A DNA stretch of 64,000 nt from Idiomarina seosinensis. GTDB lineage: Bacteria > Pseudomonadota > Gammaproteobacteria > Enterobacterales > Alteromonadaceae. How positions within the stretch are numbered: the first letter of the stretch is position 1; the number at the start of each line of letters is the position of its first letter. Both the position numbers and the translations under genes were made by a program. Positions 41,962 through 45,494 of the stretch are shown piece after piece. The DNA is taken from the NCBI RefSeq assembly GCF_003987275.1, contig NZ_PIQF01000001.1, forward strand, positions 806,001 to 870,000, given 5' to 3'. Below the pieces are notes generated by a model that was not told the DNA's origin, made no database searches, and worked only from the letters and a program-made list of their open reading frames with translations.

Positions 41962-42504
41962 TCACTTCTTGATGGGTGCCAAGACCATAATCATCTGGCG
42001 CCCTTCGGCACGTCTTGGGAACGACTCAAGTGTTGAGATTTCGTCCAAATCGTCTTTAATACGATTTAATAACTCAATACCCAACTCTTGGTGTGCCATT
42101 TCCCGGCCACGGAAACGAATAGTGACTTTAGTTTTGTCACCTCCCTCGAGGAATCGACGCAGGTTGCGCAGTTTTACCTGGTAATCGCCCTCGTCAGTTC
42201 CAGGTCGGAACTTAACTTCCTTAACCTGAATCTGTTTTTGCTTCTTCTTCTGTTCTTTCTGCTCTTTACTCTTTTCGAAGAGGAATTTACCGTAATCCAT
42301 TAAGCGGCAGACCGGTGGTTCCGCGTTCGGACTCATTTCCACCAAGTCAACGCCAGCTTCCGCTGCTGCGTCAAGAGCTTCTTTTATACTGACAACACCA
42401 ATCTGTTCGCCTTCGGTTCCGATTAAGCGAACCTCATCAACCGTAATGTCTTCGTTGATACGATTTTTATCTGCAGCTTTTTGAGTTCTTTTTCCGCCTT
42501 TAAT
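41962..42504 (-). CDS. infC: Translation initiation factor IF-3 (AUU start)
   Basis: 180 residues when read from the ATT at 42504, preceded by GGAGGAATAAACC. The reading [20 protein letters not shown] then continues to [19 protein letters not shown] and [16 protein letters not shown], matching E. coli IF-3 at equal length. The nearest AUG-type frame start would delete about 53 N-terminal residues. IF-3 itself discriminates against AUU, which gives the classic autoregulation. The gene sits directly downstream of thrS. Confidence 0.96.
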
Positions 42505-42527: not shown

Positions 42528-44441
42528 TTAAATCTTGCGTGTCTGTACTTCGTCTTCAATACGTGAAATGAAGTCTTCCAAGGGGAATTTGCCCAAGTCT
42601 TCACCACTACGAGTACGAACCGCAACCTCACCTGCTTCGACTTCTTTATCGCCGACTACAAGTAAATAGGGAACTCTTTTAAGAGTATGCTCACGGATTT
42701 TAAAGCCAATCTTCTCATTTCTCAAGTCGGCAGTGGCACGAATTCCCTTTTTATTCAGGGATTTTACCACATTTTTGACATAATCGCTTTGATTATCAGT
42801 GATATTCATTAATACCACCTGCGTTGGTGCTAACCAAATTGGGAAATGACCTGCATATTCTTCGATTAAAATTCCCATAAAACGTTCCAGCGAACCTAAG
42901 ATCGCACGGTGAATCATCACTGGCGTGTGCCGTTCGTTATCCTCACCGACATAAGTCGCATTCAATCGTTCCGGCAAGGCAAAGTCGAGCTGGATAGTAC
43001 CGCACTGCCATGCCCGGCCCAGGCAATCAAATAGTGTAAATTCAATTTTAGGACCGTAAAAAGCGCCCTCGCCTGGTAAATACTCAAAATCGATGTCATG
43101 GGCTTTTAGCGCATCAGCCAGCGCTTTTTCGCTACGATCCCAAGTTGCATCATCACCCAAACGTTTTTCCGGGCGAGTCGATAATTTCACATCGACCTTA
43201 TCAAAACCGAATGTTTGATAAGTTTCGTAAACCATTTTAATACAGCTGGCCACTTCGGACTGTACTTGATCTTCCGTACAGAAAACGTGTGCGTCATCCT
43301 GCGTAAAACCCCGTACTCGCATCAAGCCATGTAATGCACCGGATGGCTCATTCCGATGACAGCTTCCAAATTCGGCCATACGCAGTGGCAAATCGCGGTA
43401 TGACTTTAAGCCTTGATTAAAAATCTGTACATGACCCGGGCAATTCATCGGTTTTACCGCATACTCGCGGTTTTCCGAGGCTGTAGTGAACATCAACTCA
43501 GAGAATTTCTCCCAATGACCTGATTTTTCCCAAAGTACACGGTCCATCATCATCGGACCCTTCACTTCCTGGTAGTTATATTCGCGCAATTTTTCACGAA
43601 TATATTCTTCTAGTTCACGGAAAATAGTCCAGCCATTATGGTGCCAAAACACCATGCCCGGAGCTTCTTCCTGCCAGTGGAATAAGTCTTGATTTTTACC
43701 AATTTTACGATGATCGCGTTTTTCCGCTTCTTCTAAGCGCTTCAAATATGCTTTTAGCTGTTTTTTATCAGCCCAGGCAGTACCATAAATACGTTGCAAC
43801 ATCTTGTTGTCAGAGTCGCCACGCCAATAGGCGCCGGCCATTTTCATGACTTTAAAGTGCTGGCAAAACTTCATATTAGGTACATGCGGGCCCCGGCACA
43901 TATCAATATATTCTTGGTGGTGGTATAACGCAGGATGAGCATCCGTCGGAATATTTTCGTCGAGGATCTCCACCTTATAGGGTTCGTGCCGATCAACAAA
44001 AGTTTCCCGAGCTTGTTGCCAGCTCACTTTGTTTTTCTCTACCCGATATTCAGTTTTAGCCAACTCTTTCATTCGTTGTTCGAGTTTATCAAGATCATCT
44101 TGAGTAAAGGTGTGATCAACGTCGATGTCGTAATAAAAGCCATTATCGATAACTGGGCCAATGGCCATTTTTGCATCTGGCCATAACTGTTTAACAGCGT
44201 GTCCCAACAAATGAGCACAAGAGTGGCGAATGATATCAACGCCGTCATCGTCCTTTGCAGTGACCATTTCGACCCGAGCATCGTGTTCTATTACTTCACA
44301 AGCATCGACCAGTTCACCGTCAATACGACCGGCCACGGTCGCTTTAGCAAGGCCAGGTCCGATATCTGCAGCGACATCAAGAATAGAAACGGGTTGGGCA
44401 AATTCGCGTTGACTTCCGTCAGGGAGAGTGATTACAGGCAT
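42528..44441 (-). CDS. thrS: Threonyl-tRNA synthetase
   Basis: 637 residues from ATG 44441 ([11 protein letters not shown]), preceded by AAAGGA. A longer frame start at 44513 adds leader sequence. Domains: TGS (about 1-60), editing N2 ([19 protein letters not shown], with the zinc-site-like H/C set), class II catalytic core ([21 protein letters not shown], then [10 protein letters not shown]) and the anticodon-binding domain ([13 protein letters not shown]). Probably autoregulated through the leader hairpins at 44464-44546, as for E. coli ThrRS. Confidence 0.98.
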
Positions 44442-44463
44442 GAAACGTCCTTTCTGTACAGTG

Positions 44464-44484
44464 GTGACACCTACCAAGTGCCAC
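44464..44484 (-). promoter_or_regulatory. thrS leader hairpin proximal: GGU anticodon mimic
   Basis: On the minus strand GTGGCAC pairs with GTGTCAC (7 bp including one G-U wobble) and encloses a 7-nt loop UUGGUAG whose positions 3-5 are GGU, the anticodon of tRNA-Thr(GGU). It ends 22 nt before the thrS start, just upstream of the Shine-Dalgarno AAAGGA, the place of operator domain 2 in E. coli thrS. Confidence 0.7.
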
Positions 44485-44525
44485 ATGCGCTTAATTTGAT
44501 TCTTCAGAACCATACGAAATTTGTT

Positions 44526-44546
44526 GCGTTCGTTACAGTCGAACGC
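44526..44546 (-). promoter_or_regulatory. thrS leader hairpin distal: UGU anticodon mimic
   Basis: On the minus strand GCGTTCG pairs perfectly with CGAACGC (7 bp) around a 7-nt loop ACUGUAA whose positions 3-5 are UGU, the anticodon of tRNA-Thr(UGU). Together with the proximal hairpin (44464-44484) it reproduces the two-anticodon-arm layout of the E. coli ThrRS translational operator. Confidence 0.7.
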
Positions 44547-44673
44547 GAGCGGTTACTATAATCGACGGCCTTTCTTTGAGCAACCCTAATACGGCGATTC
44601 TAGCGACAAAAAATAGTCGGCTAACTTGCGTTTTTGTTTCTATAATTAAAGCAGAAATAGGAGGAGTCTATAC

Positions 44674-44883
44674 ATGCATGAAGAAGACCTGAAAAGCATT
44701 CTGGTGCGCTGCCCACATTGTGGCCACAATACCTCGTTGGAAATCGACCAATCTGAAGGGGATCAAGATTATCAGGAAGAGTGTTCCGCTTGCGGAGAAC
44801 TATTTCACGTGCAGCTCACCGTTGATGAACTGCAACAGAAAACACGAGTAAAGATTGACGGCAACGACGAGCAGTTTTACTAA
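44674..44883 (+). CDS. CPXCG-motif zinc-ribbon protein
   Basis: 69 residues with two cysteine pairs, CPHCGHNT at 13-16 and CSACGELF at about 36-39, the CPXCG zinc-ribbon arrangement, then an acidic tail. A strong GGAGGAG precedes the ATG. It is divergent from thrS and convergent with riboflavin synthase (4 bp overlap at 3' ends). Function unknown. Confidence 0.88.
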   Translation: MHEEDLKSILVRCPHCGHNTSLEIDQSEGDQDYQEECSACGELFHVQLTVDELQQKTRVKIDGNDEQFY

Positions 44884-45494
44884 GTTGTTCCGCGCTGCTT
44901 TAATACGCGTTCAACCGTTTCCACGATAGTAATGGTCTGTTGGTCAAGCTCAATATTGAGTTGAGTGCCCGGTTGTGCGTGTGACAAGTTCGTTAATCGA
45001 AGGGTTTCCGGTATTAAATGTAAACTAAACCGATTACCAGTTACCTCTCCGATGGTTAAGCTGGCGCCGTTAACAGCGATAAACCCCTTGGCAAATAAGT
45101 AATCACTGTATTGTTCAGGGACTTCTACCCAGCCGGCCCAGTTGTTATCGCTCTGTTGCACTTCCACTAAAGTGCCCTGGCAGTGAATATGCCCTGAAAC
45201 ATGGTGACCACCAATTTCATCACCGACTTTCAATGAACGCTCTAAATTTACTGAGCTGCCCTTGTTTAACTCGCCGAGATTAGTGAGCCGCAAGGTCTCG
45301 TCGATAACATCAAACTCTACTGTATTTTCGGTATAGTGAACCACTGTCAAACAACAGCCGTTTATCGCTACACTGGCGCCAATATCCAGTTTCTTAAGAA
45401 ATTCTGGCGACACCTGGACGATCAAATGGCGAAATTCGCCAGAGTCTTTAATATTGAGAACCTGAGCTTGTGTTTGAACAATACCAGTGAACAT
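44880..45494 (-). CDS. ribE: Riboflavin synthase alpha subunit
   Basis: Converts two 6,7-dimethyl-8-ribityllumazine to riboflavin. 204 residues made of two homologous lumazine-binding repeats: the first opens MFTGIVQTQAQVLNI with SVAINGCCLTVV, the second with GHVSGHIHCQGT/HIHCQG and FIAVNGASLTIGEV. Catalysis is at the trimer interface. Stand-alone here, convergent with the zinc-ribbon gene. Confidence 0.95.
   Translation of the reverse strand: MFTGIVQTQAQVLNIKDSGEFRHLIVQVSPEFLKKLDIGASVAINGCCLTVVHYTENTVEFDVIDETLRLTNLGELNKGSSVNLERSLKVGDEIGGHHVSGHIHCQGTLVEVQQSDNNWAGWVEVPEQYSDYLFAKGFIAVNGASLTIGEVTGNRFSLHLIPETLRLTNLSHAQPGTQLNIELDQQTITIVETVERVLKQRGTT

Follow-up and report, generated by a model that had tools for sequence, protein, structure and literature searches.

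The operator of thrS, the gene for threonyl-tRNA synthetase (ThrRS), is a standard example of how tRNA mimicry can control translation. In the excerpts of the literature consulted, ThrRS of Escherichia coli binds two anticodon-like hairpins of the operator and prevents 30S binding, tRNA-Thr and the mRNA compete for the enzyme, and control passes to MetRS when the anticodon-like sequence of the operator is replaced by the tRNA-Met one; these excerpts describe the operator in E. coli only (PMC7373986, PMC11088916, PMC3858243, PMC9976931). A similar principle is found in yeast, where AspRS and HisRS bind their own mRNAs through an anticodon-like element; according to the excerpt consulted these are eukaryotic systems with other synthetases, and they serve here as an analogy only (PMC6542539).

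We examined a 64,000-nucleotide stretch of DNA (the window) from a genome that belongs to Idiomarina, the ten closest named thrS loci all being from Idiomarina species (90-94% protein identity). The thrS gene lies on the minus strand at 42528-44441 and encodes 637 amino acids (stop included). Its start is ATG 44441, the same N-terminal start as that of E. coli ThrRS (1qf6); the mechanically called open reading frame extends to an in-frame ATG at 44513, within the leader. The protein, the presumed repressor, aligns to E. coli ThrRS over residues 1-636; it is a full-length ThrRS of E. coli type that has both the N-terminal and the anticodon-binding domains. The gene order thrS-infC-rpmI-rplT-pheS-pheT is also that of E. 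coli (taken from the annotation for E. coli and from proteins recognised by eye in the window). The neighbouring infC has no ATG, GTG or TTG at its expected start (42502-42504, minus strand) and its frame opens at ATT after GGAGG, as in E. coli, where infC starts at AUU.

On the minus strand 5' of thrS are two perfect 7-bp stems with 7-nt loops. The arm proximal to the gene (44464-44484) consists of GTGGCAC and GTGTCAC around the loop UUGGUAG, with GGU at loop positions 3-5 and a single G-U in its fourth pair. The distal arm (44526-44546) consists of GCGTTCG and CGAACGC around the loop ACUGUAA, with UGU at the same loop positions. ATG 44441 is separated from the proximal arm by 22 nt, which begin with CACUG directly 3' of the arm (44459-44463, minus strand) and include the Shine-Dalgarno sequence AAGGA (44448-44452, minus strand). 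The UG of CACUG is able to pair with CA at 44487-44486 (minus strand); for this 2-bp extension of the proximal stem we found no covariation evidence. The coordinates, letters, stem and loop lengths and the UGU and GGU loops given in the initial annotation were all exact when the sequence was read again. Hairpins of this general shape (stem of at least 7 bp with at most one G-U, 7-nt loop) occur 60 times on the two strands of the window; NGU occupies loop positions 3-5 in three of them, two of which are the thrS arms.

The arrangement resembles the E. coli operator (domains II and IV) in that it belongs to the same gene, lies directly upstream of the Shine-Dalgarno sequence, and comprises a proximal arm of 7 bp and 7 nt whose loop has N-G-U at positions 3-5 and which precedes CACUG, and a second N-G-U arm upstream. 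The E. coli proximal arm aligns to that of the window without gaps, CACTG included, and the distal arm agrees only in position and loop. Unlike in E. coli, where the arms carry CGU and UGU, the window has GGU in the proximal and UGU in the distal arm; its distal loop has 7 rather than 8 nt, and a stretch of 41 nt that includes a small hairpin separates its arms, the distal one apparently at the very 5' end of the mRNA. Both arms resemble the anticodon arm of tRNA-Thr in their 7-nt loop with N34-G35-U36, and differ from it in a stem of 7 rather than 5 bp and in lacking both a cloverleaf and an acceptor arm.

We assessed how far the proximal arm is conserved in 177 thrS leaders, made up of 110 that include the one of the window genome, a further 66 from its GTDB family and that of E. 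coli K-12; the set holds duplicates of some assemblies, for example L004 and L034. The arm was picked by best stem and loop length near the start codon, and loop letters were ignored. It was present in 175 of the 177 leaders, with a 7-nt loop in 173 and an 8-nt loop in two, and every loop read N-G-U; the two leaders without it (L150 and L174) are from the same family as the window genome. The 93 distinct sequences that were aligned (alignment A1) do not include these two or the two with 8-nt loops (L023 and L051), although the latter do have GGU. Loop positions 4-5, equivalent to tRNA positions 35-36, were GU in 93/93 and the stem was followed by CACTG in 93/93, while loop position 3, equivalent to position 34, was G in 51, C in 21, A in 12 and T in 9. 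In A1, 97.7% of pair cells form, and five of the nine pairs change on both sides; 55 cells are doubly changed against a mean of 13.3 after shuffling, although the rows share kinship, which makes the shuffles an easier test to pass than a comparison of independent events. The number of further pair types was unexceptional in this alignment (13 versus 11.5, with 55 of 500 shuffles equally high). Changes of UA to CG, CG to UA, and AU to GC or CG were seen in several genera. The fourth pair is G.U in 50 rows, A-U in 20, A.C in 14, U.C in 5, C-G in 2 and U-A in 2, so that a wobble or mismatch sits at this position in 69 of the 93 distinct proximal arms, a further difference from the anticodon arm of tRNA-Thr. 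G.U and A.C pairs are similar in shape, which would fit a mid-stem wobble that is kept in the proximal arm.

The initial annotation had read the leader as a ThrRS operator, and this reading withstood the refutation test that the annotation itself had named: relatives keep the position and structure of the arm, its stem covaries, and N-G-U stays at loop positions 3-5. The enzyme is of the E. coli type. Given the structure, position and covariation observed, together with the invariance of G-U and CACUG, we put the probability that the leader is a ThrRS translational operator of thrS, as in E. coli, at about 0.93; binding, repression and relief by tRNA would follow by analogy. ThrRS in excess of free tRNA-Thr would bind both hairpins through the anticodon-binding domains of the dimer as it binds tRNA-Thr anticodon arms, and would read the G and the U that correspond to tRNA positions 35 and 36. 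Once bound, the enzyme would cover the region beside the Shine-Dalgarno sequence and block 30S binding, a block that free tRNA-Thr would relieve by competing for ThrRS.

Two different isoacceptor anticodons had also been proposed to set the Idiomarina leader apart from E. coli, a distinction that did not hold. The proximal loop of E. coli K-12 MG1655 is UUCGUGU, which contains CGU, and the hairpin at the distal position is AUUUGUUG, which contains UGU. From its position, we take the latter to be the published domain IV. The K-12 sequence as read here thus differs from the excerpt of a review in which both E. coli operator loops contain CGU (PMC7373986).

The pair of anticodons in the window could nevertheless mean that the UGU and GGU arms each compete with a different tRNA-Thr, such that the operator would measure both pools. 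GGU and UGU are the only tRNA-Thr species among the 50 tRNA genes found in the window genome, matching the two loops, and the tRNA-Thr(GGU) of this genome has the loop UUGGUAA, which shares UUGGUA with the proximal loop UUGGUAG, so that a single position distinguishes the two. However, both arms read GGU in 9 of 11 Idiomarina leaders, E. coli itself combines CGU and UGU, and position 34 varies freely. One relative (G008) even has AGU in both arms, and in the 38 of its 43 tRNAs that were scanned no tRNA-Thr(AGU) was found, the tRNA-Thr genes being UGU (two) and GGU (one). We regard sensing of separate isoacceptors as very improbable. In the excerpt of a review of tRNA identity, one table lists G34, G35 and U36 for bacterial Thr and a sequence-based table lists 35; 36 (PMC9976931). 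The operators do not keep the G34 of the first table, and they fit identity positions 35 and 36 alone.

The distal arm was less uniform. The 160 nt upstream of the proximal arm were searched in the leader set for hairpins with a stem of at least 6 bp and a 7-nt loop. Of the 50 distinct hairpins obtained, 24 had GU at loop positions 4-5, at least four of these matches being doubtful (that in L048 lies inside a predicted promoter, and those in L155, L167 and the second hairpin of L025 are terminator-like); no other dinucleotide occurred more than four times. The stems of these distal hairpins are mostly unrelated in sequence between genera. Within Idiomarina, in which the sequences flanking the arm can be aligned, compensatory changes were detected in two of the seven pairs, each in one row, among 10 leaders, and 8 of 500 shuffles were as good. 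The corresponding alignment (A2, 10 rows) has an invariant loop G-U and variable loop positions 2, 3 and 7. In Pseudoalteromonas leaders the distal loop mostly has 8 nt (AUUCGUAA). Many relatives lack the distal arm or have none that was detected; none of 15 leaders grouped with Aliidiomarina, in which we placed two metagenome-assembled genomes named Idiomarina sp. (L063 and L068), has a 7-nt NGU distal arm of at least 6 bp. The leader of L044, named Idiomarina xiamenensis and 84% identical in ThrRS, was excluded from the 11 Idiomarina leaders, and its sole NGU candidate has 5 bp.

A predicted promoter lies directly before the distal arm in the window. The -35 element TTGCTC (44578-44583, minus strand) is a consensus match only, and the -10 element TATAGT (44555-44560, minus strand) is 8 nt before the arm. 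The promoter-like sequence TTGCT(C/G)-N17-TATAGT is found in 11/11 Idiomarina leaders and is followed immediately by the distal arm; a promoter scan of 44400-44900 listed no site. With this geometry, transcription would start just before the distal arm, and that arm is probably the 5'-terminal structure of the thrS mRNA in the window. The intergenic region that holds the thrS promoter is shared with a small divergent open reading frame (44674-44883, plus strand) with two CxxC motifs. A hairpin 8 nt after a -10 element is where it could protect the end of an mRNA, and relatives in Pseudidiomarina seem to lack it, both of which would suit a leader in which the proximal arm is the sole ThrRS site and the Idiomarina distal hairpin is a 5'-end stabiliser with an anticodon-like loop by chance. 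We consider such a division of roles unlikely, since among the distal hairpins, with their mostly unrelated stems, GU stands far above every other dinucleotide, and since in Idiomarina the G-U is held while its neighbours in the loop change.

In Pseudidiomarina the leader appears to be organised differently. Only 20-23 nt separate the best promoter-like site from the proximal arm in 13 of 14 leaders (45 nt in L064), and in two of the 14 (L070 and L072) one hexamer is off the TTG/TATAGT pattern. A promoter at that distance would leave no room for a distal arm, and these 13 leaders appear, from consensus-predicted promoters, too short for one. If the predictions are right, one-armed operators would exist in nature; control would then not require the ThrRS dimer to capture one mRNA in bidentate fashion, or one dimer would hold two mRNAs.

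In operators of the E. coli type the ribosome uses an unpaired linker that joins the arms. The two arms of the window are separated by a 41-nt linker (44485-44525, minus strand) that can form the hairpin TGGTTC-TGAA-GAATCA at 44512-44497, which is not significant on its own (z -0.34). Other Idiomarina species (L033-L042) have different linker hairpins or none. Linker length ranges from 24 to 63 nt among Idiomarina species and is mostly filled by these differing hairpins; the length outside the folded hairpin is 24-26 nt in seven of nine distinct linkers, the remaining two giving 7 and 18 nt with the same fold. Folding was obtained for eight linkers, with z values from -0.14 to -2.19. These figures are suggestive of linker hairpins that keep the arms at a set distance in Idiomarina.

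Folding energy distinguished the arms and not the leader as a whole. Each arm was more stable than its own shuffles (z -3.51 and -2.94), whereas the whole leader was no better than shuffled sequences (z 0.00 for 261 nt and -0.73 for 119 nt). Folding energy alone would therefore not flag the operator, and we rejected whole-leader stability as evidence for it. RNAfold also closes U32.G38 and U33-A37 inside the proximal loop to leave the triloop GGU; it likewise closes two extra loop pairs in the anticodon arm of tRNA-Thr(GGU) from the same genome.

Other leader-based regulators were also considered. In Bacillus, thrS is a T-box gene, and terminator-like hairpins occur in the leaders of some relatives, which could point to a T-box, a threonine-codon attenuator or an intrinsic terminator. 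Searching 44430-44700 against Rfam release 15 gave no match, T-box included, up to an E value of 1, and a terminator scan of 44400-44900 listed no site on the minus strand; we consider control of the window leader by any of these mechanisms exceedingly improbable. The terminator-like hairpins lie upstream of the proximal arm in 20 of the 177 leaders (L011, L012, L015, L016, L024, L025, L137, L142, L143, L151-L153, L155, L156, L158, L167, L171 and three others), 19 of which have a promoter-like site upstream of the hairpin. A CACCC..GGGTG stem is present in 17 of the 20, and in L155, L167 and L025 the loop itself reads N-G-U. Such a hairpin could be an attenuator, or the source of a short RNA with one mimic.

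A covariance model (R1) was built from A1 to follow the ThrRS operator beyond these leaders. It matched the proximal arm of the window with 49.6 bits (E 1.3e-14), the window row itself being part of the model. R1 was applied to 143 genomes from the class Gammaproteobacteria, each family being represented once and the window's own family twice; a search for ThrRS in the same 143 genomes gave a thrS match in 134. Besides that of the window, 35 R1 matches were obtained, and 34 of them lie 9-25 nt upstream of thrS. We rejected as chance a match in one genome of the class (G144) that is on another contig than thrS, and likewise a second match in G487. R1 matched 79 of 148 genomes at the order level and 30 of 200 at the phylum level, 27 of the latter within the class; position relative to thrS was checked for the class-survey matches, the second G487 match and the three matches outside the class. 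The three matches outside the class (E 4.2e-6, 0.0066 and 0.0099) were rejected as chance because they have no recognisable thrS start behind them and no 7-nt NGU loop. Two weak matches elsewhere in the window's genome (E 0.0457 and 0.22) also lack such a loop and were rejected as further targets of the motif.

The leaders of the class survey were also scanned directly. Twelve partial thrS matches were dropped (nine without the gene start and three cut at the other end), leaving 120 leaders outside the window's own family, and 119 of these, each from a different family, were searched for an arm with a given loop dinucleotide followed by a CACTG tail, one mismatch allowed. The GU arm with the tail was found in 41 of the 119 families, and the other 15 dinucleotides gave none. 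When the tail was not required, the GU arm was found in 47 of the 119 leaders versus 0-11 for the other dinucleotides. Two further families carry the arm in forms that the scan did not count, one in a leader that was not scanned and in which it was seen by eye (L206), the other in a scanned leader with an R1 match that was missed for its 8-nt loop (L208). The remaining 78 of the 119 families had no strict match to arm and tail; since the strict scan undercounts, the true fraction of families with the arm is uncertain. Together with the two of 177 leaders that have no arm, the families without a strict match indicate that thrS can do without the operator.

The E. coli operator being already known, the Idiomarina element adds another member. 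A family for this operator seems to be missing from Rfam release 15: in the E. coli thrS region the only hit was to the snoU13 model, far upstream of the operator and below the cut-off (E 0.6). We found no comparative survey of thrS operators in the open-licence literature, and earlier comparative work is possible. We give about even odds to the broader view that the thrS operator is an old gammaproteobacterial RNA family, absent from Rfam, in which ThrRS would read only G35-U36 and whose architecture would be fluid, with two arms in Idiomarina (the distal one being the 5' end of the mRNA) and one in Pseudidiomarina. The useful points are its wide conservation and the relatives that appear to get by on a single hairpin, or on an anticodon that was not found in any of their scanned tRNAs. 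A covariance-supported family with natural variants would be a ready mutational series for the loop positions that ThrRS reads in mRNA and for the need for two arms. In leaders from several other families of the class (L258, L261, L268, L277, L281, L283 and L293), what appears to be the 3' end of a tRNA gene (..GCCTACCA) was seen directly upstream of thrS.
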